Of a stretch of 34,482 nt of DNA, positions 1 to 30,600 are shown piece by piece. Source of the stretch: Blastocatellia bacterium (lineage in GTDB: Bacteria > Acidobacteriota > Blastocatellia > HR10 > J050); NCBI GenBank assembly GCA_025054955.1, contig JANWZE010000009.1:1-34482 (forward strand). The letters are read 5' to 3'. Position 1 is the stretch's first letter. Every line of letters starts with the position of its first letter. Under the pieces are notes generated by a model that saw only the letters and a program-made list of their open reading frames with translations, had not been told where the DNA came from and did no database searches. The position numbers were made by a program, and so were the translations under genes.

Positions 1-171
1 CGGGTGACCGAGTCCCCTTGGCCGCCCTGCTCTAACACCCCGTGTCAACAGAAAACTCTTGCCCGTCGCATTTCCAAGCACGTTATTTGAAACGATTACG
101 CCAGTGGGGCTCCGCGTATCGGCAACTCCTGGTCAGACAATACCAATAGTCCGAAGAAACGCCATGTGTGA

Positions 172-959: not shown

Positions 960-2348
960 ATGGCACGTGTTAATCCGCAGCCCTGGTCAAGCCAGACGAT
1001 CAAGCGCATCCTGGTTCTGGTGACGCTCATTGGCCTTGCTTCGGTGTTCATTTGGTTATGGCGTCCCCCTCAACCACCGGAAGCGCCGACCCAAGCCAAC
1101 ACGCCGCCCACGACTGACGGGTTCGCCTTCACCGGCGCTGGCTCATGCAGCTCCAGCGCCTGTCACGGCGGCATCGCGCCCCGCCCCAACGAGCGCGTCC
1201 GACTGAATGAATACAGCATCTGGGTTCTGCACGACAAGCACGCGAAAGCCTATGACGTTCTGCTCAATGAAAAGTCGAAACGCATGGCGCGTCTGCTCAA
1301 GCTCGATAAACCAGAAACCAGCGATAAATGCCTGGACTGCCATGCAACCAATGTGCCAACGAACTTGCAAACCAAATCATTCAACATCACTGACGGCGTC
1401 AGTTGTGAGAGCTGTCACGGCCCGGCCGGCGGCTGGCTCAGCGAGCACACGCAGAAAGGATGGAAGCATGCGCAGTCGCTGAGTCTCGGCATGTACGACA
1501 CCAAGAATACGATCAAACGAGCGGAGAAATGTTTGAGCTGTCATCTGGGCACGGATACCAAAAAGGTGGATCACGAGATGATCGCTGCTGGTCATCCCGA
1601 TCTTACGTTTGAGTTAGATACCGACATAGCGATCATGCCGGCACACTGGCTGGAGACAGAGGACAAAGGGCCATGGTTCGGCGTGCGTCAATGGGCTGTC
1701 GGGCAAGCGGTAGCATTGCGCGAGGGCATGAAACGTCTGGCGCGACAGGCGGAAAGTCAAGCGTGGGAGCGAGGCTGGCCGGAATTGGCCGAGCTGGATT
1801 GTTACGCCTGTCATCACAGCTTGCGTGAGCCAAGTTGGCGACAACAGCGTGGCTACAGGAATACGCCCGGCTATCCCTCATATAATGATTCGCGATACCG
1901 CGTCTTTCGTCACGCGCTTGCCTCCATCTCGCCCAACATGCGGCAAACGCTCGACGAAAAAATTGAGCAACTGCATCGCATGTTCGATCAACCAGTCTAT
2001 CGTCGGCGCGACATTGCGGCAACGGCTCAACAGGTCGCCGATATTGCCGATCAACTGGCGCGACAACTGGACAGCATGGCATTTGATCAACAAATCACCC
2101 GCGCCATCCTGCGCGCCGTTTCCAGCGATGAACAAGTCGGGCTGGTCTCTGGCATCCGCTCGGCTGAACAGGCGGTGATGACGATTAACACACTCTTCCG
2201 CACCTACCGAAAAGCTACAACTGTGCCCAACGAAGCGGCTATCACTGCGGCGATTGATCGTTTGTTTGAAGATTTGAAAGACCCGGCACGATTTGATCCC
2301 AACCTCTTTGCTGCTCATCTGCGAGCCGTTCATAAGTTCTTCCAATAA
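960..2348 (+). CDS. Membrane-anchored pentahaem cytochrome c (cytochrome c554-like family)
   Basis: A 462-residue protein with an N-terminal membrane helix (residues about 15-33) and no clear cleavage site, so probably a periplasmic domain tethered to the inner membrane. Haem-attachment motifs are visible at 63-69 (CSSSACH, the CX4CH form), 124-128 (CLDCH), 149-153 (CESCH), 191-195 (CLSCH) and 281-285 (CYACH). Extra histidines (for example HxxxH near 91-94 and GH at 211-212) could supply distal ligands. The C-terminal third is helical and haem-free. The arrangement resembles the cytochrome c554 family, whose members move electrons between quinol or enzyme donors and other cytochromes. The ATG has a GAGG core and an upstream promoter. 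The NADH dehydrogenase-like gene starts 11 bp after the stop, so the two are probably co-transcribed. The exact redox partner cannot be read from sequence. Confidence 0.9.
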   Translation: MARVNPQPWSSQTIKRILVLVTLIGLASVFIWLWRPPQPPEAPTQANTPPTTDGFAFTGAGSCSSSACHGGIAPRPNERVRLNEYSIWVLHDKHAKAYDVLLNEKSKRMARLLKLDKPETSDKCLDCHATNVPTNLQTKSFNITDGVSCESCHGPAGGWLSEHTQKGWKHAQSLSLGMYDTKNTIKRAEKCLSCHLGTDTKKVDHEMIAAGHPDLTFELDTDIAIMPAHWLETEDKGPWFGVRQWAVGQAVALREGMKRLARQAESQAWERGWPELAELDCYACHHSLREPSWRQQRGYRNTPGYPSYNDSRYRVFRHALASISPNMRQTLDEKIEQLHRMFDQPVYRRRDIAATAQQVADIADQLARQLDSMAFDQQITRAILRAVSSDEQVGLVSGIRSAEQAVMTINTLFRTYRKATTVPNEAAITAAIDRLFEDLKDPARFDPNLFAAHLRAVHKFFQ

Positions 2349-2359
2349 CCGCGTAGGCC

Positions 2360-3994
2360 ATGCCACAGGCAACGACCAATGTAGTTATTCTGGGTGGCGG
2401 CTTTGCTGGAGTCTACACAGCGATGTACTTGAGTCGCGCGTTAACAGCCGATGAACGTCGTCGCATCAGGATCACCCTCGTCAACAAAGAAAATTACATC
2501 GTGTTTCAACCATTGCTGCCGGAAGTGATTTCAGGCGCGATTGAAATGTTGCACGTCATCAGCCCGATTCGCCGACTAGTGCCTGGCGCTGAGTTATACA
2601 CTCGCGAGATCGAAGCGATTGACCTGCAGCAGCGAACCGTGCGACTGGCGCCGGGGTTTCGACCCAAACCGCTCACGCTTCCATTCGATCATCTGGTCAT
2701 CGGGCTGGGCACACGGCTGGACGCGGCCAAAGTCCCCGGCATGCAGGAACACGCCATCCCATTTAAGTATCTCGGCGACGCGCTGCGATTGCGGAATCAT
2801 CTGGTGCACGTGCTGGAAGAGGCAGCTATCGAGACCGACCAACAGCAACGAGAGAAACTCTTGACGTTCGTCGTCGCCGGCGGCGGCTTCTCTGGCATCG
2901 AGTGCATGGCTGAACTGAACGACTTTGTGCGCGAGGCGATCAAGCATTACCCGACTATTCAACCGCATGAGCTGCGTATGATCGTGCTGCAAAGCGGCGA
3001 ACGAATCCTGCCGGAAATGGTTGAACGGTTGGCCAACTTCGCTCATCGTTTGTTAACCGAGCGTGGCATAGACATCCGCCTGAGAACTCGGCTGCAGGCT
3101 GTCACGGCTGAGTCGGCCATCATTCAGAACCAACTCACTCATCAGCGAGAGGCCATCCCGACGCGAACCGTGGTCGCCACCGTGCCTGCCGGCGCACATC
3201 CGCTGTTAGAACAACTGCCTTGCCAACGCCAGGCTGGACGGTTGTGTGTCACCGAATTTCTCAACGTGCCCGATTGGCCCGGCGTATGGGCGCTTGGCGA
3301 CTGCGCCGCCGTGCCGCAACCGGACGGCATCCTCTCGCCGCCAACGGCGCAGCATGCTCTTCGTCAAGCGCGAACCTGCGCCGCCAATGTACTGGCTGAA
3401 ATTCGGGGCGGCCGGAAACAACCGTTCAGCTTCACCGGTCTTGGCAAACTCGGATCGTTAGGACGTCGCTCGGCTGTGGCCGAACTGTTCGGCGTTAAAT
3501 TTTCAGGACTGCCCGCCTGGTTGATATGGCGCGCTGTCTATCTCTGGAAGCTTCCCGGCTTCGACCGAAAAATCCGCGCGCTGATGGACTGGTTCCTGGA
3601 CGTCATCCTGCCCCGGGACATCACACAAGTGCGAATCTTTCAACCTGACGCTGTCATCCAAGAACACTTCGAGCCGGGCGAAATCGTATTCGATCAGGGC
3701 GACTTCGGCGACAAAATCTACTTCATCGTGAAAGGAGAAGTGGTGGTCATCAGAGACAACGAAGTGGTGGCGCGCTTAAGCGACGGCGATGTATTTGGCG
3801 AAATCGCGCTCGTTTCCGATACCGCCCGCACAGCTAGTGTGCTGGCGACGACGCCACTTGATGTGGTCACCGTCTCACGCAGCGCATTTAAGAAATTGCT
3901 TGCTCATTTGCCCGGCGTTCGTAGCACGATGAGCGAGATCATGCGCCAACATCTAGCAGAATCAGCCGAGCTGAGACAACAGATCAACTCGTGA
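2360..3994 (+). CDS. Type II NADH dehydrogenase-like flavoprotein with C-terminal cyclic-nucleotide-binding domain
   Basis: A 544-residue protein. Residues 8-19 (LGGGFAGVY) form the FAD-binding Rossmann motif, 171-181 (VVAGGGFSGIE) the NAD(P)H-binding motif, and 310-318 (WALGDCAAV) the C-terminal flavin motif, as in NDH-2-type NADH:quinone oxidoreductases. Residues about 385-420 are aromatic and amphipathic, matching the membrane-association segment of that family. Residues about 430-530 add a cNMP-binding domain whose phosphate-binding cassette keeps the key glycine-glutamate (G480-E481) and arginine (R490, followed by TA). NDH-2 proteins normally end near 400-430 residues, so the extra domain is a fusion. 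It probably feeds NADH electrons to quinone without pumping protons, with activity tuned by a cyclic nucleotide; the tuning is inference. It follows the cytochrome gene by 11 bp. Confidence 0.9.
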   Translation: MPQATTNVVILGGGFAGVYTAMYLSRALTADERRRIRITLVNKENYIVFQPLLPEVISGAIEMLHVISPIRRLVPGAELYTREIEAIDLQQRTVRLAPGFRPKPLTLPFDHLVIGLGTRLDAAKVPGMQEHAIPFKYLGDALRLRNHLVHVLEEAAIETDQQQREKLLTFVVAGGGFSGIECMAELNDFVREAIKHYPTIQPHELRMIVLQSGERILPEMVERLANFAHRLLTERGIDIRLRTRLQAVTAESAIIQNQLTHQREAIPTRTVVATVPAGAHPLLEQLPCQRQAGRLCVTEFLNVPDWPGVWALGDCAAVPQPDGILSPPTAQHALRQARTCAANVLAEIRGGRKQPFSFTGLGKLGSLGRRSAVAELFGVKFSGLPAWLIWRAVYLWKLPGFDRKIRALMDWFLDVILPRDITQVRIFQPDAVIQEHFEPGEIVFDQGDFGDKIYFIVKGEVVVIRDNEVVARLSDGDVFGEIALVSDTARTASVLATTPLDVVTVSRSAFKKLLAHLPGVRSTMSEIMRQHLAESAELRQQINS

Positions 3995-4025
3995 AACGGT
4001 CGCGCTGCTCGAAGCCCACTCTCTT

Positions 4026-4074
4026 GAGCCGCGCAAGCGGCTCATGCGAAGGTAGCCAGACGGGCAACGTCTGG
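4026..4074 (+). repeat. Dispersed hairpin element, copy C, between convergent genes
   Basis: Two hairpins lie in tandem. The first, at 4026-4043, has 7-bp arms GAGCCGC/GCGGCTC closed by a GCAA (GNRA-type) loop. The second, at 4056-4074, has arms CCAGACG/CGTCTGG and loop GGCAA. Homology to copy A continues to about 4115. The position between the converging stops at 3994 and 4128 would suit a bidirectional transcription stop, but there is no T-tract, so intrinsic termination is doubtful. Confidence 0.7.
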
Positions 4075-4127
4075 GACAACAGAGCAAATCAGAGCGGCGT
4101 GTTGGAGACGCGCCAAGACATTCAATG

Positions 4128-4832
4128 CTACACCTGAATGCCGAGCTTCAACGTCGGGTCTTCGTGCTCGTCTACCTCGCCGACCCGACCGGCCGCATGT
4201 TGCTGCTTGAGGGTAATAATGGCAAACAAGAACAACGCCACATAAAATCCTACGCCTATCGCCAACGCAATCTTTCCTGGTATCGGCCCAATCGTAGCTC
4301 GCCGCCAGAGCTCCTGCCATGTGGTCAAGGCCGTAGGATGGATAATGATTTTGCCCATGTAGCTAATTCCTAGGATCAGCAGAATCCAGGCATAATTGCG
4401 ACGCAGCCGCCGCCCCAGGGCTTCCCAATAGCTAATGTGGAAGTGCAAGTTCGTATAATCATCGGCCAGCACCTGATGCCAGTTGTTATCAACCCGCACG
4501 CCTTCGCCGCGCAAAATGGGCGCATAGAAGCAGACTTCCAACAACCGCACCCGGGTCCGCCAAATGTCGAAGTAACGATACCGCCGAGCCTCGATTCCTA
4601 AAAAGACCAGCACGAGCAATCCGACCAGGACGAGCGGCAATGGTGAATTCTCCGGATTGCTGAACGTCAATGAGAGCGCCAAGCCGGTGGTGGCCACTGC
4701 CCAGTTGGTCGTCGTATCCAGGCGTGTGCGCCAGACTTTGCTGCGATACATCTCGCCTCGATACAGATGGGCCAAGGCTCCCATCTCGGCTGTATCAAAG
4801 AAAGGTGTCGACATGTGGTCGCGTGCATTCAT
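4128..4832 (-). CDS. DUF2270 integral membrane protein
   Basis: This is the last gene of the minus-strand operon, 234 residues from the chosen ATG. That ATG (4832-4830) overlaps the TGA of the decahaem cytochrome gene (4831-4829) in an ATGA arrangement, which argues for translational coupling; an alternative ATG lies six codons on, at 4814. The sequence matches the DUF2270 family: an N-terminal segment rich in YRGE and W-R-T-R-L-D, two membrane helices with a [14 protein letters not shown]-type segment after them, an aromatic and charged middle, then two further helices near the C terminus, giving four in all. DUF2270 proteins have no established biochemical function to my knowledge. Placement directly after a large cytochrome suggests a membrane partner for electron transfer or assembly, which is inference. 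Confidence 0.85.
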
Positions 4833-7800
4833 CGCGGTGAGATTATTCTTGGTCGGCTCCGCTGCCATGTCAAGAACACGAGAACAACCATCGGCCCCAG
4901 CAACCACGAGAGCCACCCGGCGCGACGCGCGCTCACCGGTTGCGTGGGAATGTCGTTCGTCACCGTATAGAGACGGCCTGCTCGCAGGTAGAGGCGTTGC
5001 ATCTCCGTCAAGTTGAACGGACGCGAACCACGGCGACCAAACACAGCCAGTTGATAGCCACTCTCATCAACGGCGCGGTCGCGGTCGAGTCCTTCGGAAA
5101 TGGCCAACGCCGGCCCGTGTGTGTGATACGTGGCAATTAACCTTGGATTGGGGCGCGGGCTGAAGCCTAAATAGTGAGGTGTATCACGCGGCGAAAAAAG
5201 CTGAACAACACGCAGGCCATTATGCCCATCGGCGATGTAGGCAAACTGACTGGCGTTGGTCATGCCGACTTTCACATCGCGCGCATCATTGATCGCTCCA
5301 TTAGCGTTGAACCATTGATCCAGCCGCGGCTGTTCAGGCCGTTCAATATCAAGGATAGCCAGTCCTTGCTTTCCAGCGGCCACGTAGGCATACGTGCGAA
5401 CCAGGTAGAGATTGTTGGCTTCGGCCAACGGGACGACAGCTCCGGGCACTGGACGAGGTTGGTCCAGCGCCGTCACGTCCAGCACTTTGACGCCCTCAGC
5501 GTCACACACGAACGCATAGCGAAACTGCACAGCGACGGCTTTCGGTCGAACAAGGACAGGCGGGCCGATCTCAGCCACCACCTTCGGCTCAAGCGGATTC
5601 TCTAAACTGACCACCACCACCCCACGATCACAGCAGATGTAAGCATACAAACCGGCGATGGTGATATTGACGGCGCCGTTGAGTATTCCATTGGGATTGA
5701 ACGTGACGGCTCGCTTCAGAAAATTGTTCTCTGGATTTCCGTCGAGTAACGTGGCGACGCCCGCGTTGTTGGGATCACCTGGCGGATTACCAATCACAAT
5801 CAATCCTTCGTACTTGTCCGTCACATAGAGAAATGCATAAAGCAGCGGAATGCGCTGTTTGTCATCACGGTACTCTGCTTCTTCGTTTTCTGGACGATGC
5901 GGGCGAGTCGGATCAATCGCCATGGTGGAGGGAGAGGCCACTGCCGTGGCATAGCGCGTCTTGACGTAAAGCTGCTGGCCGAGCGGCGAAACCGGCGCTG
6001 TGACGATCCGTTCGGAAAAGCCCTTCTGATCAATTTGCGCCACATCATAAACGCGGAAACCGCCAGCCCCGTTGGCCGTGTAGAGATATTCACCGCGCAA
6101 CTGAAGGCTCAGCACCTCGGTGTCGTGCCCAGGCCAGCTCAGAACGTCGTTGCCCGGATGATGATAGGCTTCTTGCAATTGATCGCCACGTTGCTTGTGT
6201 TTCTTGTACCGCTCAGGGTAGGCCACCTGATGAAGCGTGCTGCCAATGACGGCCTGTGGCTCGTCATGTTCGGTGACCACGACTGCTTCAAATCCCTTCC
6301 GGCCCTCGGCCACGTAGACGTAGCGTCCAAGGAAGTTATAGAAATTGGTCCCCTGCATCAGCACCATCGCCATCCACGCATTGTTATCGTTCTCGCGCGA
6401 TATATGGCAATCGGTGCACTGCTTGGTCTCTCGTGAGCGAACCGTGTGCGGCACAAATGGACTGAACGCCGTTCCGCTGTAGCCTTCGGCTGAGACGGTC
6501 TGTTGCTGCGAATAAATCCACTCGCGATTTTGATTCTGCGAGCCAACTAAGACGGCGCATGCCGAACGAATCGGATTGATACGACGCCCCGTCACCGTTC
6601 CGTTCAAACCGAGCATGAAGACGTCATCGCGCAACGTCTGAAAGTTATACTCGACGTAGTTGCGCAATTCTTCACCTTCATTGTGCAACATCGGCTTTCG
6701 TTTATTAGCCTTCTGTGGCAGATGGCAGCCAAAGCAGCTCGTCGTCCATGAGGTATGGCAGGCGATGCAGGTCATCGTTTTGTTGGCGTGAGCTAGGCGA
6801 TCATCCGAGACAACCGTTCCCCAGCTTTGCCCGTCGCGCTGAAGCGTTTTGGCCAAGGCCGATTTTTGATTGAAGTCGGTATGACCTGGCGTGATCGTAT
6901 CCTTGACTTGGCGAACCGGCCACTCCTGTCCTGGGTTGACCATCGAGCGTTGGTAGAGGCGGTTGCCGCGCCAGACGAAGCGTCGCGGTCCCCACGGCGT
7001 TGACAAGCGGCTCAGATCAGTGCCGCCGGGCGGAGCGGCCGGCCCCGACGTTCGCAAATTCGTATACCGCTCAATCGTGCCATGACAATCAATGCAATCA
7101 ATCTCGATGGCGGCACGAACTTCGCCATACAGTTTGCCGTTGCCATGAACATCCTGCTCGAAATGGCAATCCACGCAGTGCATGCCGCGCTCCAGATGAA
7201 TGTCTCTCAGATGAACGGCTTTTTTGAACCGGTCAGGATCATCATGCGGGACAATTTGACCATTGGCATCGAGCAGGTTGCCCTTCCGGTCTTGACTGTA
7301 GACAGCGCGAAAGACCCAGCCGTGCCCGTGAAAATCGGCAAACTGTGTGCGCGATAATTTCGGGTTGATGTCGGTATAAAGGTTGGCCAGAAATTCTTTA
7401 TCTCCCCACAGGCCGCGCTGCGCCGAGCCTTCCGGGTTGGCCCGCTGAATCTGTTCGAGTTCTTCAGGCGAGCGTTTCAGCTCCTTGGCCGGATACATCC
7501 ACTCGCCGTCGGTTTCGTTGTCCCACCACGTGTACCCCAGATAGCTTTGCGTCACCGTCGTGCCGGGATGAACATGACAGACGATGCATTGGCTTGATGG
7601 AATGGCTCGCGTCAGCACGTGCTTGATTGGGTGACCGGACTCGTTTTTGGGAATCGTCGGATCGGCCGAGAAGCTGTGACCACGATGTTTGAACGGGGCG
7701 TATGGGCCGGCGTGCATGGGGTCGCGGTCGTTGGCATACACGACATGGCAAGCTGTGCAGCCGCTGGAACGATAATCGCCCGGCTGATCATTCGTCCCCA

Positions 7801-8716
7801 TAAAGGAGAGCATCGGATCAAGCAGCCGCGTCTTTTGCAGTCCGATGAATACCGGATCAGTTCGATTCAGCGTGCCGAGTCCGCGCACGCTCAGTCCTTT
7901 ATCCGGTTTGCCGCCTTCTTCTTCAGGATCAGGATTTCCCACTTCCAGTCGGCGGCGTCCGCCTCTCTCGAAGACTCGTAGGATATTGCCTGGTTGCGTC
8001 ACTTCCCATCGTGGCAGCGGGTCCAGATATGGCAGAATCCCTTTCAGCAACGTATCACGCGGCGTCGGCGGCGGGATCGTTTGCAGCCTTCGTGGTATGC
8101 CATCAGCCGTATAGCTTTCGCCATAACGTGGGTCTTTGAACGGCACCGAACCGTTGTTATACAGCGCCGCGCCCCACAACATGGCTCCATGCGTCATCAT
8201 GCTCTTTTGCACGTTGGCGACAATCTGGGTATGACAGCCGGCGCTCCCACAACTTTGCATAGCCACGCGCAAATCACCGGGATTAACGAAGCGAATAAAT
8301 TCCGGACTTTCATCATTGAGTTTGGCGAATGATTGAACCGGATTGGCCGAGCTTTTCCACAGTTCTGGCCGGCGCGGTTGCACGTGGGCGCGTTGTTTGG
8401 CCAACTGATAGGATTTTGAATAAGGCGGCTGATTGGCCGCGTCAGCCGGTTTCTGGACAGTGGCATCGCCGCCGTGACAATCCACACAGCCGATGCGCAC
8501 CGTCCGCGTCGGGTGCATGGTCGGTTCATCCATCGGTGTGTGGCAGCTCAAACAACCGGCGCTCTTGCGGTCAGCTTCGTCTTGCCGTTGAGACAGCAAC
8601 GTCGGTTCCTGACCGGTGGCCGTTGAAATCAACAGACTACTCAAGCCGATGCTCAGCGCCAACGCCAAACAGAATCGCTTCACGTGAAGTGTGACCTTGC
8701 CGATGCTTCTGTTCAT
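4829..8716 (-). CDS. Decahaem cytochrome c with LVIVD-repeat beta-propeller and C-terminal membrane anchor
   Basis: About 1,295 residues. The ATG at 8716 has an AGGGAG Shine-Dalgarno sequence 7 nt upstream; the TTG seven codons earlier is rejected. A signal peptide (about residues 12-35, ending near TATGQ) sends it out of the cytoplasm. Ten haem motifs are visible: nine CxxCH (near residues 55, 77, 320, 377, 514, 541, 650, 661, 767) and one CX4CH (CGSAGCH, near 156). From about 860 to 1230 come at least six repeats of the type YAYVAxGxxGLxxxDIxxPxxP, the signature of LVIVD beta-propellers. A hydrophobic helix near 1269-1285 ([14 protein letters not shown]) followed by arginines would anchor the C terminus in the inner membrane. 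It probably stores or relays electrons in the periplasm while the propeller binds a partner or substrate. The gene is 17 bp downstream of the barrel gene and overlaps the DUF2270 gene. Confidence 0.9.
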
Positions 8717-8733
8717 CACATCTCCCTGTGACG

Positions 8734-11073
8734 TCAAAACGTGAACCGCGTGCTCGCAAATGCGACGTAGAGCACACGCGAATTGAAAATATCCTTCAAT
8801 CCATTGCCAGGCACCAGCGCCGCCACGCCGCCTTTCAAGATAATGTTATTGTTCAGCAGCGGGCGATACTGCACGCCAATGCTGTAATCCGTGCCGATGA
8901 AACGCCGAATCGGCGCTTGATAGAGCAACTGCTCAATCGGCTCCGTGTGATGGAACCACAACAAATTCACATTGACCAGCGAGCGGAGCTTTGGCGTGAG
9001 CTCCAGATCGGTTCCCATATTGAACAAAAACAGGCCGGGATTGACGAAATTCGATTGCCCTTCCCCCTTGCTCGTGCGCAGGCTGGGAATCAAGCTATTG
9101 GGTTGAACCAGTCCGACGCCGGTGCCGGTCAGACGAAGGCCCTGACGATTCCAAAAACTAAATTCGCCGCCGGCAAACACCGGCTCGTCAAAGATGGTAT
9201 CAAACCCGCGCGCGCGACGATCTGTCGGCCGGTCATCGCCGGATGACCAGAAGAAGGAACTTTTCAATCGCAACCAATCGCGATCCACCGAGGCTTCAAC
9301 AGCGGCCATCTGCGCATTGACATCAACACGGCGATTGGCAATCGGATTGAAATCATCTTCGCCCAGCGCCTGATAGAAGGCATGCGTTAGATTCAACCGG
9401 CCAATGTGACCATCGCCGGCGATGCCCAGATAGACGATGTTCAAATTATGCGGCCTAAACCCGCCAATCGGCGCAGGCCGCTCAAGGAAATTGTTTCGAT
9501 TGAAGTGCAACCCGCCTTTGTCACGATGACCGGCGTGATCGTCGTTGTAATGAATGCTGCCCTGAATGGTATAGCCTTTGACAATGAAATCTTGCCGGTA
9601 CATGTTGAAGACGGCCACATTCTGATGACGCGATTGAAAGACGGTGTTGAGCTCGCTGTTGGTGTCTTTGTCTAGTTGCGTGAAATAGGCCAGGTTCCAT
9701 TGATAGAGATTGTTATGATTGTTGCCAAACAACCGATAGCCCATATTCTGCTCGCGAAAGATGAACCCACGAAAATCACTATTGAATTTCTGGATACCGA
9801 CGCGTAGCGAGGTGAAATCGAAATAGGGGCTTTTATCGCGTTTGAATAGGCCGCGAAAAAAACCAATCAAGCCAGGCGGCGAGTCAGCCAGCTTGATTTC
9901 GCCAAACAGTTCCTGCAATCCCACGTGGCCATCCAGCCGATTGGTCCCGCGACGAACGTCTATATTGACCACACCGTTTTCTCGCGTGTTCAGATAATTG
10001 ATGTTGAACACCGGCGTGATACGAAATACCCAATCCTGCGGCTTAAACGCCGTGCTGCCGCGAAACAACTCAAAGGTCAGTTCAAAATTTTGTCGCAGGA
10101 AAAACATCTCGCCGCGACCGAAGAAGTCTTCGCTGCCCGCTTCGGCGGCGCTCGGTGGGCTAGGAATGTAGAGCCGACGCGCCTCCGTCAGCGTTTCGCT
10201 CGAACCTGTCACAATCGCGAACACGTTTTGCCCGATGATCGGATAATCGCCTTTGAGCACATTCTGATTATATGGGTCATAGGGTCGGCCCCGATGGTAG
10301 GGCGCTTCGTAGCCGGTTTGCCGATCCCAATCGGGCCAGCCCAGCCGCCAGCGGTCGGCGACGCGATCGGTCTTCTGGCCGCGCCGAGGACGACTGCCCG
10401 AGCCTGTGTAACCAATGGGCGGATCAACCGGCGTGATAATTTCGCTTACGTCCAACGGGAGAACCGGCGTGGGCCGTGCCTCAGCAGGCCGTTCATCGGT
10501 TGCACGTCGAACATAGGAGGCTTCAGAGCCAGGCTCCTCAGTCACCACGAGCGAGCCGTCGCTTTCCGGCTTCAGCAGCGGCTGATAAGGCAATCGCTCG
10601 ATGCGCGCTGGCGGCAACGTTGCCGGTTTCATCTGCACACAGAGCGTCAGAACCTCTCCGGCAACAATCCGCAGATGCTGCTGGACTACGGACACAAACC
10701 CGCTTTTGTCGGCTTGGAGCTCATACTCACCCGGCGGCACATCAAGCACACGAAAAATGCCATCACCATCGGTCAACCGCAAAAATGTTTTGCCTGTGGT
10801 CAAATGCCTCAGTTTGATCGCAACGCCGGGAATCGGCGTTGTCGAAGGACCGGTCACCAATCCCTGCAAATCACCTGCTTGCGGTAGCGGCTGACGCGGA
10901 ATGCGCTGTACGGAGGACTCTCCCAACTCAATCGGCTCAATCCATTGCGCCAGGACAACTGGTTGACCGACGAAGCAAAATCCAATCAACCACCACGAAA
11001 CAATCGCCACCGTGATAGCGGCTCGGCAATCCCGGCATTGCTCAAGCCGACCTCTTGCGATTATTCGACTCAT
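8734..11073 (-). CDS. Outer-membrane beta-barrel protein with N-terminal carboxypeptidase-regulatory-like domain
   Basis: First gene of the minus-strand operon, about 779 residues. The ATG at 11073 is preceded by GGAG with a 5-nt spacer; a GTG four codons upstream has no such site. A signal sequence (hydrophobic core near residues 18-40, ending VLAQ) precedes a CarboxypepD_reg/Ig-like domain (about 60-145, with [18 protein letters not shown]). A proline-rich linker follows. From about 300 the sequence alternates polar and aromatic residues in long beta-strands and ends in FASTRFTF, the terminal phenylalanine recognised by outer-membrane barrel assembly. It lacks the clear plug domain and TonB box of a standard TonB-dependent receptor, so a porin-like barrel is as likely. 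Co-transcription with a decahaem cytochrome raises the possibility of a porin-cytochrome conduit, but the cytochrome's inner-membrane anchor argues for caution. Confidence 0.85.
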
Positions 11074-11179
11074 ACCGCTCCGCACAGCAAGGCGGCATCA
11101 GAGTAACATAGCCTCCATCAACTATCAACCAATTTGATTGCTGGACAGCGTTGGCGCAGCATGATAATTTGATAACCCG

Positions 11180-12757
11180 ATGAAGCGAACGCTTTTCACA
11201 GCCAGCCTGGTGATCATTGCGCTGCTGTTGGCTGAAAAGAGTCGCCACGATGCCCAAACCGGTTCGCCGATATTGACCGCCAGCGATGTCCAGCAACTGA
11301 TCGGACGGGCTGCGCGGGCGCTGGCTGACCCAACGATGGTCATCGCCGTCACCGACCGGGCCGGGCGGATTCTTGGCGTGTTCCGCAAGCCGCAAGCGCC
11401 GCAGCTTGCGCTGGGCAATTTTGGCCGGATGGTCAACGCCAACGACCTGGCTGTCGCGCTGGCTCGCACAGGCGCGTTTTTCAGTAACGATCAAGCGCCG
11501 CTCTCATCACGCACAGTGCGCTTCATCAGCGGCATTCACTTCCCGCCGGGGATTGCGTTCACACCCAACGCTGCGCTCTACGGCATCGAGAACACCAATC
11601 GAGGCTGCCCCCTCGATCCAGAACTTGACACCCTCATTCCGCGCGCGCGGGCGCTGGACGGCGGTTTCGGCTTGGGCATCATCACCGGCAAGGCCGATCT
11701 GCTGGACACAATTCCCTACCCTGATGCGCTCAATCCGGGCGGCATACCGATCTTCAAACAGGGGCGGGTCGTCGGCGGCATCGGCGTGGTGCTCGGCGCG
11801 CGCGGCGAGCGCGTGACGCAAGCTGAACTGGTAGCATTCACGGCAGCGTGCCCGTTTATCGCCTCAGCTTTGCCGTTGCCGTCGCCTGGGGTCATTTTCC
11901 TTGACGGCATTCGACTGCCGTTTGCCGTCATCAATGGCCAAGAGCTGCCGCCAATTCCAAGCTCCTTTCAATGCCCAGCAGGGTCAACCGTTGACGTGAG
12001 CAACTTCCCGCAGCCTGGCGAAGGCTCATACGTGGTCATGCCGCGAGATGGCGGAATTGTGCCCGATGGCTGGCTGCTTGGACCACGAGACGGCCTAGGT
12101 CTAACGCGAGATGAAGTGCGCCGCATTATCCAGCAGGCGGTGGAACGCGCCGAACGCACGCGGGCGGCTATCCGGCTGCCAGCCGGCAGTCGCGCCCGAT
12201 TCGTCATCGCTGTGGGTGACGTGAGCGGAAGGATGCTCGGCGTCTTTCGCATGGCGGACGCTACTGTGTTCAGCATTGACGTAGCGGTGACCAAAGCGCG
12301 TAATGTCGTCTATTTCAGCAGCAGCTCTGTTGACCCACGTGATATGCCCGGCGTTCCACCCGGCACAGCCGTGACCAATCGGACCATCAGCTTTGGCGCG
12401 CAACCCTTATACCCACCGGGCATTGGTCCGGGTCGCGGTCCGTTTGATCCGACCGCCGCTGGCCCGTTCTTCGACCTCTATCAACGCGATACGAATTCGC
12501 TTTGCACGCAAGGCCATCAACCACCCAACGCCAGTCAGAGCGGCGTGGTCTTCTTTCCCGGCGCCGTCCCGCTTTACCGCGATGGCCAGCTCATTGGCGG
12601 CCTCGGCATCAGCGGCGATGGCGTTGAACAAGATGACTATGTGGCGGCAGCCGGCGCCGTAGGCTTTGAGCCTCCTGCGCAGATTCGCGCCGACAACGTG
12701 ATCGTGCGCGGCGTCCGATTGCCCTATCTGAAATTTCCACGCAATCCTGAAAGGTGA
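11180..12757 (+). CDS. Secreted heme-binding protein with two GlcG/HbpS-like (DUF336) domains
   Basis: A 525-residue protein with a signal peptide (hydrophobic residues 5-17). The first DUF336/GlcG-like domain (about 33-245) opens with DVQQLIGRAARALADPTMVI, then a VTDRAGRILGVFR strand and a late glycine-rich GRVVGGIGVVLG segment. The second (about 305-520) repeats the plan: DEVRRIIQQAVERAERTRAA, then VGDVSGRMLGVFRM, and GQLIGGLGISGDG. GlcG/HbpS proteins bind haem or small ligands, and HbpS acts as an extracellular haem and redox sensor. The gene is divergent from the barrel-cytochrome operon across a gap of about 105 bp and is followed after 4 bp by the phosphodiesterase gene. A role in haem handling or redox sensing for the nearby cytochromes is inference. 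The ribosome-binding site is weak. Confidence 0.85.
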   Translation: MKRTLFTASLVIIALLLAEKSRHDAQTGSPILTASDVQQLIGRAARALADPTMVIAVTDRAGRILGVFRKPQAPQLALGNFGRMVNANDLAVALARTGAFFSNDQAPLSSRTVRFISGIHFPPGIAFTPNAALYGIENTNRGCPLDPELDTLIPRARALDGGFGLGIITGKADLLDTIPYPDALNPGGIPIFKQGRVVGGIGVVLGARGERVTQAELVAFTAACPFIASALPLPSPGVIFLDGIRLPFAVINGQELPPIPSSFQCPAGSTVDVSNFPQPGEGSYVVMPRDGGIVPDGWLLGPRDGLGLTRDEVRRIIQQAVERAERTRAAIRLPAGSRARFVIAVGDVSGRMLGVFRMADATVFSIDVAVTKARNVVYFSSSSVDPRDMPGVPPGTAVTNRTISFGAQPLYPPGIGPGRGPFDPTAAGPFFDLYQRDTNSLCTQGHQPPNASQSGVVFFPGAVPLYRDGQLIGGLGISGDGVEQDDYVAAAGAVGFEPPAQIRADNVIVRGVRLPYLKFPRNPER

Positions 12758-12761
12758 AGCC

Positions 12762-13538
12762 ATGACGATGCAAGTCAAACTCCTGGCCAGTCATTGCGCA
12801 GACCCGGCTCATCTTCAGCCGCTGACCACATTTTTGGTTAACGACCAACTGGCCATTGACGCCGGCAGCCTCGGCATTGCGCTGCCGCTTGATCAACAAC
12901 GCCTCATCCGTCACGTCGTTATCACACACGCGCATAGCGATCACACAGGGGCGCTCCCGATTTTCATGGCCGAAGTCTTTCCCTTTTTGGATAGCCCGGT
13001 GGTCATTCACGCCATTGAGCATGCGATTCAGTCTCTCCAGCGACATATTTTCAATGACGCCATCTGGCCTGACTTTCATCAGATTGCGTTGATCAATGGC
13101 AAAGGCCCATCGTTGATCTATCACACGATCAGCCCCGGCATTCCGTTCGAGGTTCATGGATTGCGTATCACGCCGGTCGCTATGAATCACACGGTCCCGT
13201 GCGTCGGCCTCATCGTCGAGGACGGAGCGCATGCCGTCATCTTCACGTCTGACACGTATCACACGGATGAAATTTGGCAGCTCGCCAACCAACTGGAGAA
13301 CCTGCGAGCTATCTTCGTTGATGTCTCGTATCCCAACGAGCACGAGCAACTGGCGGCTGTCTCAAAGCACTTGACGCCGCAGTCGCTTGACGCAGAGTTG
13401 AATAAACTGACACGCCCAACCGATGTCTATGCCGTGCACCTGAAACCACAGTTTCGTCAACAAGTGATCGAGCAGTTGGCCCGATTGAACCGACCTCGCG
13501 TGTTCGTGGCCGAGATCAATCGCCAATACTCTTGGTGA
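12762..13538 (+). CDS. MBL-fold class II 3',5'-cyclic-nucleotide phosphodiesterase-like protein
   Basis: A 258-residue metallo-beta-lactamase-fold protein. The metal-binding signature HAHSDH lies near residues 64-69, followed by a late histidine (MNHTVPC, near 145), an aspartate (SDTYHTDE, near 165) and a histidine near 226 (VHLKPQF), as needed for a two-zinc centre. The order and spacing, with TFLVNDQLAIDAGSLG at the front, fit the class II cyclic-nucleotide phosphodiesterases (yeast PDE1 and Vibrio CpdP type) rather than RNase Z. It would hydrolyse cAMP or cGMP to the 5'-monophosphate in the cytoplasm; there is no signal peptide. AAGGTGA precedes the start, with ATGACGATG giving two possible initiators. 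A class III adenylate cyclase gene begins 17 bp after its stop, so maker and breaker are probably co-expressed. Confidence 0.85.
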   Translation: MTMQVKLLASHCADPAHLQPLTTFLVNDQLAIDAGSLGIALPLDQQRLIRHVVITHAHSDHTGALPIFMAEVFPFLDSPVVIHAIEHAIQSLQRHIFNDAIWPDFHQIALINGKGPSLIYHTISPGIPFEVHGLRITPVAMNHTVPCVGLIVEDGAHAVIFTSDTYHTDEIWQLANQLENLRAIFVDVSYPNEHEQLAAVSKHLTPQSLDAELNKLTRPTDVYAVHLKPQFRQQVIEQLARLNRPRVFVAEINRQYSW

Positions 13539-13555
13539 ACAAGTAAGGAGTGAGT

Positions 13556-15190
13556 ATGGCCAAGCTGAAAGTCACCCTCCCGGCTACCGGTCAAGCGTTT
13601 GATCTTCCGGTGAGTGACACTGAAGTCCGCATCGGGCGGCACCCGGATAACCATATCGTTGTTCAAGACAACCGCGCTTCACGGTTTCACGCGGTCATCA
13701 AGCGGGAAGCGAAGAGTTACATGGTTAAAGACTTGGGCAGCCAGAATGGGACAACAGTCAACGGGCAGGAGATTGCCCGCGATCAATGGGTTCCATTCAG
13801 CGCGGGTGATCGTGTCGTGCTGGCCAAAGGGGCGGCCATCATTGAGCTCGTTGAAGACGGCGACGTATCGCCTGCTTTGTCCTTCAGCGACATGCCGGTA
13901 TCCGGCGCGACAATCGTGCGTTCCTCCGATCAAATCATCGGTGAAGTAGCCGTCTCCGATGCAACGAAGCTGCTGGCGGGCGGGCCGCAGCAAATCCTGT
14001 CGGAACTGACGCGACTGAAAAAGCACATTGACAAACAGGCCGAGCGAATCAAATTGCTTTCACGACTCAGTCAAGCGCTCGGCTCGATCACCAACCTAGA
14101 CCAAATCTACGAGCGCTCGGTTGATCTGCTCTTTCACTTCACGCCGGCTGATCGTTGCCTCATTCTGCTGCGCGCGCCGGAGAGCGATGAACTTCAGTTG
14201 GTCTATTCGCGCTATCGCCCAGATCGAATCGGGATACAAGCGATTCCGGTCAGCCGCACCATCACAACGCGCACGTTTCAGGAGCAACAATCGGTGCTCT
14301 GGTCACAGGTGGCAGCCGATTCAAAAGCGCCCGGCACGTTGGTCAAGCATGGCATTCATTCGGTCATGTGCGCTCCGCTGATCGGTCGCCACCAGCTTTT
14401 AGGCGTGATCTATGCCGACCGACAGTCTCCCACTGATGTCTTCGAGGTGGACGATCTGGAGCTTCTCAACACTGTCTCAGGACCGACGGCGATTGCCATT
14501 GACAATGCGCTCGCCTTTGAGCAACTGCGTCGAGAAGAGATCGCCCGTGCTGCGTACAATCGCTTCCTGCCACCCCATCTGGTGAACAAACTACTGGCCA
14601 ACCCCGAAGCTATCCATTTAGGCGGTGTCAATCAGGTTGTCACCATTCTTTTCTCCGACGTCCGCGGATTCACCTCACTGGCCGAGCAGGCTGATCCACA
14701 AAAGGTGGTGAGCGCGTTAAACGACTACTTCTCCGAGATGACGGAAATCATCTTTCAAAACAACGGCACGCTCGACAAATTTATCGGCGATGGATTGATG
14801 GCGCTGTTTGGCGCACCTGAGTCCTCGCCTGACGATCCCACCAATGCCGTTCGCACCGCCATCCAGATGCAGCGGCGCATGGTTTCTCTCAGCCATGAAT
14901 TAACCCGATATGGCTTCCCACCGATCAATATCGGCATCGGGATTAACACCGGTGAAGTCACCGTCGGATATATCGGCTCGGAGCGCCGCATGGACTACAC
15001 GGCCATCGGCGACGCAGTGAACCTCACAGCCAGACTGGAGAGCAAAGCCGCGCCCGGCCAAATCTTGATCAGCCAGGCGACCGCAGCACTGATTCAAGGA
15101 ACCTTCCCACTGCGTTCGCTCGGCCCACTACAGGTCAAAGGCAAAATGAATCTGGTAGAGACCTACGAAGTCCTCTGGCAAGAAATCTGA
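13556..15190 (+). CDS. FHA-GAF-adenylate cyclase (class III, predicted IIIb)
   Basis: A 544-residue cytoplasmic protein. The ATG at 13556 is set by AAGGAG (13545-13550) with a 5-nt spacer; the GTG at 13550 overlaps that site. An FHA domain (residues 23-75: RIGRHP, SRFH, NGTTVNG) should bind a phosphothreonine peptide. A coiled linker and a GAF domain (about 165-325) follow, then the catalytic domain (about 350-540). The two metal-binding aspartates are in FSDVRGF and FIGDGLMA. The adenine-selecting lysine is present (TLDKFIGDG), and threonine occupies the second base-selecting position (DYTAIGD), as in class IIIb adenylate cyclases; guanylate cyclases carry Glu and Cys there. The NLTARLE helix supplies the transition-state Asn and Arg. 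It probably makes cAMP in response to a phosphorylated partner and a GAF ligand. Confidence 0.93.
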   Translation: MAKLKVTLPATGQAFDLPVSDTEVRIGRHPDNHIVVQDNRASRFHAVIKREAKSYMVKDLGSQNGTTVNGQEIARDQWVPFSAGDRVVLAKGAAIIELVEDGDVSPALSFSDMPVSGATIVRSSDQIIGEVAVSDATKLLAGGPQQILSELTRLKKHIDKQAERIKLLSRLSQALGSITNLDQIYERSVDLLFHFTPADRCLILLRAPESDELQLVYSRYRPDRIGIQAIPVSRTITTRTFQEQQSVLWSQVAADSKAPGTLVKHGIHSVMCAPLIGRHQLLGVIYADRQSPTDVFEVDDLELLNTVSGPTAIAIDNALAFEQLRREEIARAAYNRFLPPHLVNKLLANPEAIHLGGVNQVVTILFSDVRGFTSLAEQADPQKVVSALNDYFSEMTEIIFQNNGTLDKFIGDGLMALFGAPESSPDDPTNAVRTAIQMQRRMVSLSHELTRYGFPPINIGIGINTGEVTVGYIGSERRMDYTAIGDAVNLTARLESKAAPGQILISQATAALIQGTFPLRSLGPLQVKGKMNLVETYEVLWQEI

Positions 15191-26002: not shown

Positions 26003-26213
26003 CTCCATCTTCATCGTTTCTGCCGCGTCGCCACCGGCGACATGAACAACTGCTTTGGTGATACTATGCTCAAAGTGAGCGCTAACGTACAACCGCCCGT
26101 CTGCTGCTGTCAAGAAACAACCATGAGGGAAGCAGTGTTTTTGACTTCACGTTGGCAATGTGATATTAAAATTGCCGCATTTCGATCATCTTGCCAATCT
26201 ATCGGAGGTAGCG

Positions 26214-27509
26214 GTGGCAAACCGAGACGCGGGCCGAACTAAGCCACAGGCGAACCGTTCAGCGCCTGTAGCACTCACGGCCATTCTCTTCTTATGCTGC
26301 CTGCTGCCAGCAACATGTTCCGACGCCGTTTCGTCGCACACGGGCCGTCAAGATGAAGTCCGCGCTCTCTGGGTAACCCGCGCCACGCTCACTTCACCGG
26401 AGAAAATTAAGCAACTGATCAACCAAGCGACCGAGGCTGGATTCAACACGTTGATCGTTCAGGTTCGCGGTCGAGGTGACGCTTATTATCAATCGCGCTG
26501 GGAACCACGAGCAAAAGAACTCACCGGCCAGGAGCCAACATTTGATCCGTTGGCACTGGTGTTGAAAGAGGCCAAATCTGCCAATCTCAAGGTGCATGCC
26601 TGGATCAACACGGTGTTACTGGCCAATCTGGACGACCTGCCGCCGATGCCCACACATGTGTTGAACAAGCACCCTGAATGGCTGGCCGTGCATCGTTCTG
26701 TAGCTGCTCAGTTGTACACACTTGATCCTGCCGCGCCGCAGTACCGCCAACAATTGATTGAAGCGTGCAAACGCGACATGTCGGAGCTGGAGGGGCTGTA
26801 TCTTTCACCGGCGCATCCGGCGGTCAAGGAGCATCTCTATTCGATTTTCATGGATGTGCTGGAGAAGTACGATGTTCATGGCCTGCACTTTGATTATGTC
26901 CGGTTGCCGAACCCTTCGTTCGATTATAGTCGGACGGCGCTCGACCGGTTTCGCCACGTGATCGAGAAACAGTTGAGCGAGCGTGAGCGACAGTTACTGG
27001 CGCGCGTGGCGGCCACCGACCCGTTGGTCTATGCAAATACCTATCCAGAGGAGTGGCAGCAATTTCATCGTGACCAGGTGACCGAACTGGTCGAGCGCAT
27101 CTATCACGGCGTCAAGGCGCGCAAACCTCACGTCGAAGTGAGCGCCGCCGTTTTCGGCAACGATCAAGATGCTTTCACCCGTCGGTTTCAAGATTGGAAA
27201 CGCTGGTTGCGCATGGGCATTTTAGACATCGTCTGTCCGATGGCCTATTCACCGGATACGGAGACGTTCCGTCAGCAGATCGCGATCGCGTATGCTCATG
27301 CCGCCGGTCGGCGCGTCTGGGCCGGCATTGGCGCCTACCGCATTCCGGTTGAAAGCACGCTGGAAAAAATTCGGACAGCGCGCGAAATTGGCGTCCAAGG
27401 GTTCGTGCTTTTTTCTTACGACAGCGCCATTCGGGTGAGCGAAACCAATCCGGGCGGCGATTACCTGCTTCGGATCAAACAAGCGGTTCTCGATGCGAAG
27501 GAGAAATGA
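26214..27509 (+). CDS. GHL10 (DigH/YngK-like) family glycoside hydrolase
   Basis: A 431-residue exported protein. I place the start at the GTG at 26214, because GGAGG (26204-26208) lies 5 nt upstream; the longer frame to 26160 has no such site. A signal segment (LTAILFLCCLLPATC, about 19-34) is followed by the family opening EVRALWVTRATLTSPEKI, then FNTLIVQVRGRGDAYY, VHAWINTVLL, GLHFDYVRLP (with the acidic pair typical of family-10-like barrels), VSAAVFGND, IVCPMAYS and VQGFVLFSYDSA. This is the GHL10 alpha/beta-barrel family, which includes E. coli DigH (YddW), a glycosidase acting on peptide-stripped peptidoglycan strands. It probably works in the periplasm or at the cell surface on wall glycan. 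It is divergent from the beta-oxidation gene and is followed 151 bp later by a TonB-dependent receptor. Confidence 0.88.
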   Translation: MANRDAGRTKPQANRSAPVALTAILFLCCLLPATCSDAVSSHTGRQDEVRALWVTRATLTSPEKIKQLINQATEAGFNTLIVQVRGRGDAYYQSRWEPRAKELTGQEPTFDPLALVLKEAKSANLKVHAWINTVLLANLDDLPPMPTHVLNKHPEWLAVHRSVAAQLYTLDPAAPQYRQQLIEACKRDMSELEGLYLSPAHPAVKEHLYSIFMDVLEKYDVHGLHFDYVRLPNPSFDYSRTALDRFRHVIEKQLSERERQLLARVAATDPLVYANTYPEEWQQFHRDQVTELVERIYHGVKARKPHVEVSAAVFGNDQDAFTRRFQDWKRWLRMGILDIVCPMAYSPDTETFRQQIAIAYAHAAGRRVWAGIGAYRIPVESTLEKIRTAREIGVQGFVLFSYDSAIRVSETNPGGDYLLRIKQAVLDAKEK

Positions 27510-27634
27510 TGATCCAACTCACCATTCATCCGCGACAGCATCCACCGGACCACCGTGGCGAGCGTGAATGCGGCAGGCCGGTACGCAACGGGCTGTCGTC
27601 AGGGCTGAGAAGGGGCAGCCTGGGCAGCCGTTGA
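27506..27634 (+). CDS. Possible small ORF overlapping the GHL10 stop
   Basis: A 42-codon frame begins at ATGATG (27506 and 27509), overlapping the GHL10 TGA as ATGA and preceded by AAGGAG. The product (MMIQLTIHPRQHPPDHRGER and 22 more residues) is rich in Arg, Gly, Pro and His and has no recognisable family, signal or helix. The good ribosome-binding site and overlap are the only support. It may be the surviving start of a lost gene or chance. Confidence 0.22.
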   Translation: MMIQLTIHPRQHPPDHRGERECGRPVRNGLSSGLRRGSLGSR

Positions 27635-27660
27635 GCGCGCTGCCCAAAGTCTTCAGGTCT

Positions 27661-30600
27661 ATGCTCAACAGGATTTCGATCTATGCGTTCGCCGTCTTCA
27701 TCTGGCTGTTCATGGGCGCGGACAGCATCCAGGCGCAGACCGTCACTGGCACGTTGGAAGGAAGAGTTGTTGATGCCAGCGGCGCTGTGATTGCCGATGC
27801 CACGGTGACAGCCACGAATTTGGAAACAAGCTTTGAGCGAAAGTCGGTGACCACAGCCGACGGGCTTTATCGCATGACATTCTTGCCCATCGGTCGGTAT
27901 AAAGTCACGGCTGAGAGTGAAGGATTCAAAGTCGTCACCAAGGAAGGCATTGACATCCGGCTGAATGAAACCACCGTTGTCGTCTTCACGCTGGAGCCGG
28001 CGGCCGTTCGTGAAGAGATCACGATCACGGCCAGCGACGTCGCGACTATCAACACAACGAGCGGCGAGATTAAAACCTCATTTGATGAACAGGTCGTAAC
28101 CGACCGCCCGTTGCCCACGCGCAACTTCCTGAGCCTGGCCGAGATCGTGCCGGGCTTTCAAGCCAACTTGTTCTCAGGGCAAAACAATCCGACCTTGTCC
28201 AGCGGCAGCTCGATCAACTTTAACGGCACAGGCACGCGCGGCGCGACATTTCAAACCGACGGCGTCAATAATGATGACGCGTCGGAGAATCAAAACCGCC
28301 AGGGCGTCAATATCAGCACCGTTAAGAATTTCCAAATTCTCACCAACAATTTCAGCTCGGAATTCGGTCGCGGCTATGGCGCTGTCGTGCTCGTGCAAAC
28401 CAAGTCGGGCACCAATGATGTTCACGGCGATGTCTACTGGTATCACCAAAACAGCAAACTCAACGCCAATACGTTTTTCAACAACGCCGCCGGCAGTCGC
28501 GTCAACCCTGTCACCGGCGTCTTTGGCCCGACCGCGCCTGTGCCGCCGAGTCGGCGTCACCAGTACGGGTTCACGGTCGGCGGGCCGGCCATCAAGGATC
28601 GGCTCTTCTGGTATGGCAGTTTTGATCAGACGCGCAGCGGCGGCTCACTTTCGATCACCCGCGACATCCTGCTGGCGAACGAGCGCACGCCCGATCCTTC
28701 AGTGACCGATCCGAGAAATCGGCAATGGATTCTCGATCAAATCAAGCGGTTCCCCAATGTCGCGCCGAATAACCCGGCCAGCCCGCGCGCGTTCACTACA
28801 ACGGCGCTCTTCAGCTTCCCCGACGAGGACTACACCGGACGACTCGACGGACGCATCGGCAACAATCACAGCTTCGTGCTTCGCTATCAGTACAGCCGCC
28901 AAAAGCGCCAGACGGAAGATGTCATCATCGGCGAGCAAGCTCGCCAGAACAATAAGCAGCAAAATGTCGGTTTCACCTACACGCACGTCTTCACGCCGCT
29001 GACGGTTGGCGAATTCCGCGCCGCGCTGGGCCTGCGCTCCACCATCGTGAACATCGCGGCAGGCAACGATACGCCTATCATCCGATTTGCCGGAACGACG
29101 TTCCCCTCCATCATCGGGAATGCTGGCACATTCCCCATCCAACGCTACCAAACCGACTGGCAATTCGTTTACAACCTGACGACACTCCAAGCGCGGCGGC
29201 ACAACCTGAAGTTTGGCACCGATATCCGACAAGGGCGATTGGATGATCTGGCTGACGCCTTTTCTCGTGGTTTTTGGACCTTCTCGACAACCGGCGGATT
29301 CAATCAATATCAAAATTTCCTGCGTGGCTTTGTCACCACCTATATCAAAGCCTACGGAAATTTCTTCCTCGAAAACCGGCTGCGTGAGGTCAATTACTAC
29401 GTTCAGGATGACATCAAGCTGCGGCCCACGTTCACACTGAATCTCGGCTTCCGCCATGAAATCGTGGCAGCGCCGAAGGAGATCAAGGGCCGCATTGAGT
29501 ACGGCTATGGCACCGATGCAGATAATGTTCAACCTCGCATCGGCTTTGCCTGGAGTCCATCGGCAGACGGCGGTTGGATTGGGAAACTGACCGGCGGGCC
29601 GGGCAATTTTGTTGTGCGCGGCGGCTACGGCATCTTTCATGGCCGACAATTTCAATCCATCTTTGCCAACGGCGGCGCCGGCATGCGTTACAACCCTCCG
29701 AATGCCGCGCAACTGACGTTCTCCAATTCGCTGAACGTGGCCGATCCATCCGGTGGATTTGTCTTCACGCCCGGTCCGGCCACAACCCGCGTGCAAATTA
29801 CCATTGCAGACCCGAACCTGGAACTACCCTACACGCAACAATGGAATCTGACGCTGGAGCGACAGTTGCCCGCCAATCTGGCATTGAGCATCAGCTACAA
29901 CGGCAACCGGGGCATCGGCCTCCCCTTTTATGATTGGGGCAACCGGCCTGATTTTCCTGCTTGCGCGCCGGATCATCCATTCGTGGCTGCTCAGTTCCGC
30001 AATGTCTGCTTCACCATGATTGATCCCAATCTCAACAACACGAATCCGGCGCCCGGCTTCATCTCACGCGTGCAAACGAGAGTCAACGAGCGACGGCCTG
30101 ACCCACGTTACTCCAATGTTCTTCGCGTCTTCAACGCCGCTTGGACCTACTATCACGGCATGCAGGTGAAACTGGATAAGCGCCTCAGCAACAACCTATC
30201 GTTCAACCTGGCCTACACATGGAGCAAAGCAATTGACACCGGCTCTGAAGCAACCTCGACCGGCATAGATACCAATGCCGTGCAGAGCCGATTGCTTGGC
30301 CCGCGCAGCATGCGCGCTGTTAGCTCATTTGATACGCCGCATCGCTTGACGCTCAACTACAGTTACTATCTGCCGTCGCTGAGCAACTCCATGTGGATTG
30401 TTCGTCACACGTTGGGCGGATGGCAACTATCGGGCACGGCGACGTTCGCTTCAGGCAATCCGTTCACGGTGTTCATCGGCTATGATTACAATGCCGATGG
30501 CATCAGCGGCGACCGACCGATTCTGGTTAATCCGTCGGTTCTGGGCAGGAGCGTGGACAATCCACGACCCGATCCGGCTAATCCGAGTCAGCAGATTGCC

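Follow-up and report, generated by a model that had tools for sequence, protein, structure and literature searches.

In the MtrB-type conduit a barrel of 26 strands surrounds a slim decahaem cytochrome of the MtrA type, and Cyc2 has a 16-stranded barrel and a single haem, located at its periplasmic end, the substrate entering its pore (PMC8406198). ExtI, the porin of a Geobacter cluster that also holds ExtM, was proposed to be a selenite-selective channel (PMC5877670). Porin-MHC clusters of Verrucomicrobia, in which a porin of at least 20 strands is encoded beside a multihaem cytochrome, were described in Opitutus-type genomes (He et al., 2017; PMC5615132). In June 2026, 'group 1' porin-cytochrome complexes were reported from MAGs of the Sterkfontein ghost-rock, in which porins of about 20 strands are encoded next to large decahaem cytochromes, 7 of 11 cases having a ferredoxin-NADP reductase in the vicinity; the PCC-bearing MAGs of this site were largely Acidobacteriota and Gammaproteobacteria (PMC13264449). 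Our literature searches for LVIVD repeats with multihaem cytochromes and for the combination of FHA, cNMP and multihaem found nothing relevant.

Here we analyzed a contig of a Blastocatellia bacterium (JANWZE010000009.1, positions 1 to 34,482); this whole stretch of 34,482 nucleotides is referred to as the window. An earlier note, made from its sequence alone, had described an operon of an outer-membrane barrel, a decahaem cytochrome and a DUF2270 protein. The natural unit at this locus is the barrel-cytochrome pair together with other neighbours rather than the trio with DUF2270. As the earlier note had suggested, the pair is unlike MtrCAB and the known PCC types, to which no homology was detected by Pfam, profile and fold comparison.

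Gene organization and the DUF2270 gene

The ORF list confirmed three genes on the minus strand of the window, in the order barrel (ORF 8734-11085, ATG at 11073), cytochrome (ORF 4829-8737, ATG at 8716) and DUF2270 gene (ORF 4128-4916, ATG at 4832). They are tightly packed, as previously noticed: 17 bp separate the barrel stop from the cytochrome ATG, and the cytochrome stop and the DUF2270 ATG overlap as ATGA (4829-4832). The trio is flanked by an HbpS-like gene (11180-12757) and a c554-like gene (960-2348). The window also carries a GHL10 glycosyl-hydrolase-like gene (26160-27509) beside a gene for a TonB-type outer-membrane barrel (PF25183) with a CarboxypepD_reg domain (27568-30930), and one ORF (31543-33927) that combines a beta-lactamase-family domain (PF00144) with a NamZ exo-beta-N-acetylmuramidase.

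The DUF2270 gene (4128..4832, minus strand) encodes a membrane protein of 234 aa, which scored 218 bits against a Pfam cut-off of 25. It is co-operonic with the pair in this genome, and the ATGA overlap would fit a single envelope-spanning complex of barrel, cytochrome and DUF2270. However, the ordered trio expected across Acidobacteriota was not conserved, since DUF2270 lay beside the pair in its own genome only and near the cytochrome at no other locus examined. It was detected in 50 of the 297 Acidobacteriota genomes and in nine of the 32 genomes with the cytochrome, a co-occurrence that was not significant (Fisher p 0.08). In relatives possessing both genes, DUF2270 was located on another contig or about 96 kb from the cytochrome. 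DUF2270 was therefore rejected as the inner-membrane partner and judged to lie outside the system, and the three-protein complex is considered very improbable.

Distribution and linkage of the barrel-cytochrome pair

Profile searches detected 32 strong orthologues of the cytochrome among the 297 Acidobacteriota genomes, according to our own count of strong rows. The barrel was present in 31 of the 297 genomes, and all 31 also encoded the cytochrome, leaving a single cytochrome genome among the 32 without it (hypergeometric p about 3e-41, relatedness ignored). In 92 of 105 testable loci, which include a few cases of one genome from two collections, the barrel gene was directly upstream of the cytochrome gene and had the same orientation, with a median gap of 16.5 bp. 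Where the two genes were not adjacent, a full barrel was encoded elsewhere in nine of ten tested genomes. The proposal of a functional pair would have suffered had barrel and cytochrome occurred mostly apart; in the 297 genomes the two went together, and co-occurrence (31 of 31) and adjacency (92 of 105) both support it.

A scan of GTDB contigs yielded at least 574 candidate loci of the cytochrome family, and the cytochrome-barrel family spans at least nine phyla. Among the matches listed were Planctomycetota, Verrucomicrobiota, Nitrospirota, Chlorobi, Ignavibacteriae, Binatia, Rokubacteria and Deltaproteobacteria; mis-binning may affect some MAG contigs among these relatives, such as two 'Kuenenia' contigs. 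The family tree grouped largely by phylum with some scatter, Verrucomicrobiota forming one starred group, and the family therefore looks old, with some transfer. The family is common in lineages generally taken to be aerobic heterotrophs, a distribution that gives no pointer to metal respiration. The pair was also found in the cultured planctomycete Roseiconus nitratireducens (L118) and in the completely sequenced Planctomycetes bacterium Pan216 (L104), and laboratory study is therefore possible.

The decahaem LVIVD propeller cytochrome

The cytochrome (4829..8716, minus strand) is a protein of 1295 aa with a Sec signal peptide. Its ten haem sites occupy residues 62-778 of the 4829-8737 ORF (6404..8554, minus strand) and comprise nine CXXCH motifs and one CX4CH at residue 163. 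In an alignment of 19 orthologues, the CX4CH shared columns with ordinary CXXCH motifs, and each of the ten sites was at least 97% conserved across 40 homologues drawn from many phyla. The ten haems that had been read from the window are thus no chance count. A further 13 histidines outside the CXXCH motifs were conserved at 95% or more in the same homologues, which suffices to ligate each haem on both sides.

The LVIVD repeats (PF08309) scored 40 bits against a Pfam gathering cut-off of 20.2. They correspond to a beta-propeller domain of roughly seven blades in the model (residues about 804-1219; 5081..6328, minus strand), with propeller fold matches of Z 25-30. The model of the cytochrome is of moderate quality only (mean pLDDT 71), and the propeller dominated the match lists when the whole model was used in fold searches. 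Profile comparison with solved structures gave only a short haem-pair match to octahaem nitrite reductases (profile positions 65-119, E 3e-6), which we judged to be a local motif. The haem regions 510-558 and 643-781 matched ExtM, ExtN and ExtO weakly, and the score against the ExtM model (NF040943) was 81.2 bits, below the equivalog cut-off of 800.

A C-terminal TM helix with a basic tail (4865..4921, minus strand; hydropathy) is present in the window cytochrome, as had been reported. It is lineage-specific: a crude hydropathy scan detected it in no more than 15 of 107 relatives, so it is no feature of the family and does not settle the location of the cytochrome.

The outer-membrane barrel

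The barrel protein (8734..11073, minus strand) has 779 aa, a signal peptide and a C-terminal Phe. Pfam identified a CarboxypepD_reg-like N-terminal domain (PF13620; about 10630-10869, minus strand), and a disordered linker leads to an AlgE-like barrel domain (about 8737-10224, minus strand), for which AlphaFold2 predicted 18 strands, with pLDDT mostly 85-98 in the barrel blocks. The best fold match of the model was AlgE (Z 28.7, rmsd 2.8 A over 358 aligned residues), and its nearest folds were the substrate channels AlgE, OprD/OccK and chitoporin. A sequence match to the alginate export family (PF13372) was obtained for five of 40 barrel homologues (best 9.7e-9); the window barrel itself gave none. 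MtrB_PioB was matched neither by the window barrel (Pfam, E up to 0.1) nor by the 40 homologues (E up to 0.01), and the barrel profile matched no PDB sequence. MtrB was also missing from the VIA table, a second look at Foldseek's list, which by itself excludes nothing. The estimated charge facing the pore was near neutral to slightly negative, which is uninformative on the substrate.

A wide MtrB-like barrel of about 26 strands is ruled out if the predicted 18 strands are correct. A decahaem wire inside the window barrel is therefore unlikely, but a Cyc2-like pore is plausible. The earlier note had reached the same view from the C-terminal anchor of the cytochrome; this anchor is not general, and the strand number provides the stronger argument.

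The window barrel has no CXXCH. In contrast, the barrels of four relatives carry a class III tetrahaem domain, with four CXXCH motifs, at the N-terminus (L035:4991-7306, L036:4691-7066, L038:11904-14264 and L062:5695-8016). This domain shares homology with a small tetrahaem protein encoded separately in the clusters of L035 and L038. Most other barrels carried Ig-like N-terminal domains, comparable to the CarboxypepD_reg domain of the window barrel, or no recognised domain. The tetrahaem-barrel fusion is the strongest hint of redox chemistry at the pore.

Conserved neighbours and the inner-membrane set

Five other proteins recurred around the pair, namely an HbpS-like protein, a c554-type cytochrome, a decahaem cytochrome, a cytochrome b and a cytoplasmic 4Fe-4S protein with cNMP binding. 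The locus counts given here refer to 85 loci of 14 kb or more. The HbpS-like protein (PF03928) was the most frequent (54 of 85), and many of its members had signal sequences or lipoboxes. In the window it is a secreted protein (11180..12757, plus strand) whose gene diverges from the barrel gene at a distance of about 95 bp. The HbpS-like proteins of planctomycetes (L079, L087, L096, L099, L118, L126 and L131) displayed an N-terminal motif of the LESR/LETR/LEGR type, which may be a lineage-specific secretion signal. The c554-type cytochrome occurred in 40 of the 85 loci, in other relatives directly downstream of the LVIVD cytochrome; the window copy (960..2348, plus strand) has one N-terminal TM segment, four CXXCH and one CX4CH.

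The neighbouring decahaem cytochrome, which often has an FHA domain on the cytoplasmic side, was detected in 45 of 85 loci, and the cNMP-binding 4Fe-4S protein and the cytochrome b, counted together, also in 45. Only about half of the loci thus had the inner-membrane module close to the pair, a count limited by contig ends. The cleanest gene order was found in a Nitrospirae bin (L112), where genes encoding cNMP-FeS, cytochrome b, membrane decahaem, HbpS-like protein, barrel, cytochrome and c554 follow each other, with close variants in L105, L100 and L109. Among 11 genomes encoding the inner-membrane decahaem at E < 1e-20, ten possessed the pair. The cytochrome b has four conserved TM-helix histidines, spaced by 14 residues in each of two pairs, which we take to be the pattern of a two-haem b relay of the ferric-reductase/NOX-like type. 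These data point to the cNMP/4Fe-4S protein, the cytochrome b and the membrane decahaem cytochrome as the real inner-membrane partners.

In the genome analyzed here the inner-membrane set is located on another contig, C133 (L156:475-2025, 2034-2972 and 3018-4328). A 72-bp stretch near the start of the window's contig C9 (window 100-171) is 97% identical, in inverted orientation, to a stretch near the start of C133. Bases near it belong to a dispersed repeat family. The stretch was rejected as evidence that the two contigs adjoin, since a dispersed repeat fits the geometry equally.

NAD(P)H-type modules and cyclic-nucleotide genes

The window encodes an NDH-2-like flavoprotein fused to a cyclic-nucleotide-binding domain (2360..3994, plus strand; Pfam), a candidate for the entry or exit point of NAD(P)H electrons. 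Its homologue in L061 (450 bits, L061:1-1128) lies 4 bp from the inner-membrane operon. NuoE/F-like genes were found beside NuoG-like proteins with cNMP domains in L032. The cNMP-FeS protein and the TM cytochrome b form a single polypeptide in L035 (L035:14277-16724), where a further chain (L035:16774-19501, an ORF cut off by the locus end) combines FHA, TM, eight haems, 4Fe-4S and an FAD/NAD(P) pyridine-nucleotide oxidoreductase. Thus, varied NAD(P)H-type modules attach to the same inner-membrane set, and cytoplasmic NAD(P)H or ferredoxin may exchange electrons with the periplasmic haems.

Two more genes on the plus strand follow the HbpS-like gene of the window. A metallo-beta-lactamase/class-II cAMP-phosphodiesterase-like protein (PF02112, 49.9 bits; 12762..13538) is encoded 4 bp after it, and an FHA-GAF-class III nucleotide cyclase (13550..15190) after another 11 bp. 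Homologues of both adjoin each other near the cluster in L112, and cyclases occurred near several other clusters. Within the clusters, cNMP-binding domains sit in the redox proteins. This arrangement is no more than suggestive, and the phosphodiesterase-like protein and the cyclase are possible regulatory associates of the system.

Proposed mechanism and alternative explanations

Co-inheritance and adjacency of barrel and cytochrome, and their recurrent linkage to the HbpS-like protein, the c554-type cytochrome and the inner-membrane set, are direct results of the genome comparison. On balance, we consider it moderately likely that the pair makes up the outer-membrane half of a conserved system for electron transfer across the envelope, with an inner-membrane relay. 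Envelope-spanning electron transfer, as put forward by the earlier note, thus remains likely from the wider neighbourhood of redox proteins; the part that fell away is DUF2270 as the inner-membrane partner.

From this gene content we infer the electron flow and the docking of the cytochrome. In the cytoplasm, an NAD(P)H flavoprotein (in this genome the NDH-2-cNMP fusion) would exchange electrons with the cNMP/4Fe-4S protein, which in turn would exchange them with the two-haem cytochrome b and, through it, with the inner-membrane decahaem. The c554 cytochrome would connect the latter to the LVIVD decahaem, which may dock by its propeller or its haem face where the 18-stranded barrel opens to the periplasm. 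There, electrons could meet a small soluble acceptor or donor entering the pore, as proposed for Cyc2, or could move on to a partner at the surface, for example the HbpS-like protein. The inner-membrane step might be tuned by cyclic nucleotides. Since the dehydrogenases to which the carriers attach are of the NAD(P)H type, outward flow is our first guess. A more specific version is advanced only tentatively: a new system of trans-envelope electron export or import, NAD(P)H-linked and cyclic-nucleotide-gated, built from a propeller decahaem and an AlgE-type barrel whose 18 strands would act as a gate for electrons or a redox substrate, and with an inner-membrane relay that could work independently of the quinone pool.

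The main rival explanation differs in whether electrons leave the cell. According to it, the decahaem-propeller protein acts in the periplasm as a reductase or oxidase supplied by the inner-membrane module, and the AlgE-like barrel is a substrate porin passing an anion, a saccharide or a phenolic, with no electrons crossing the outer membrane. The 18 strands and the nearest folds (AlgE, OprD/OccK and chitoporin channels) are in agreement with such a porin, and so are the anchor of inner-membrane type at the C-terminus of some cytochromes and the weak similarity of the cytochrome to ExtM, since ExtI was proposed as a selenite-selective channel (PMC5877670). The predicted barrel is too narrow for a decahaem insert, so that physical passage of electrons through it is conjectural. 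However, the tetrahaem domain on the barrel of four relatives puts haems at the pore, and the more than ten conserved non-CXXCH histidines can ligate every haem, leaving no obvious open catalytic haem. We regard this explanation as possible but doubtful.

Reduction of ferric or haem iron at the surface, coupled to uptake, would give the HbpS-like protein a role in capturing haem or iron. Its presence at 54 of 85 loci, more than for any other additional neighbour, fits this explanation, as does a weak Ferric_reduct similarity in one cytochrome b relative. However, the clusters showed no recurring TonB-type receptor or siderophore gene, the family PF03928 is broad, and twenty or more haems would be costly for iron scavenging, making this explanation quite improbable.

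If trans-envelope electron transfer by the pair is true, abundant soil and freshwater bacteria own a barely described electron route across the envelope, with a pore architecture different from that of the characterised MtrAB-type porin-cytochrome conduits, and more organisms count in the redox cycling of iron, manganese, humics or chalcogens. The more specific version, if correct, would make such a system common to dominant phyla of soil and freshwater (Acidobacteriota, Planctomycetota, Verrucomicrobiota and others) that are not normally classed as electroactive. The NAD(P)H-type input and the cyclic-nucleotide sensing built into redox proteins are testable links.

Comparison with known systems

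The tetrahaem-barrel relatives resemble Cyc2 in that their barrel is small and bears a haem domain N-terminally, on the periplasmic side; they differ from it in their 18 strands and four haems, and the window barrel has no haem. With AlgE (PF13372) the window barrel shares the 18-stranded fold in its model, and its conserved neighbours are redox proteins. The Geobacter Ext selenite/tellurite cluster (ExtI, ExtM, ExtN, ExtO and ExtP) likewise unites a porin, multihaem cytochromes and a membrane cytochrome b. However, ExtM was described with 12 haems and 68 kDa, compared with ten haems in the window cytochrome, and the Ext set includes a Rieske protein and the ExtKL selenocytochrome in place of the cNMP-FeS and HbpS-like proteins of the window-type system.

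The clusters of He et al. (2017) and the family described here have Verrucomicrobiota in common; compared by description, the cytochrome of the former possesses eight haems and that of the window ten (PMC5615132). Group 1 of the Sterkfontein MAGs, matched by description, is probably the same as the barrel-cytochrome pair. It was given as a cluster of motif counts only, and the propeller, the AlgE fold, the inner-membrane module and a cross-phylum analysis were not part of that description (PMC13264449).

As in MtrCAB, MtoAB and PioAB, an outer-membrane barrel is encoded with a decahaem c-type cytochrome. The adjoining of the two genes, a trait of the MtrAB/PioAB type, was found in the window with its 17-bp gap as well as across the family (92 of 105 loci). 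In contrast to these systems, the barrel has 18 predicted strands and no Pfam relation to their porins, and the cytochrome contains a propeller. We therefore rate the pair as one that works like a porin-cytochrome system, yet stands outside the MtrAB type by sequence and strand number.
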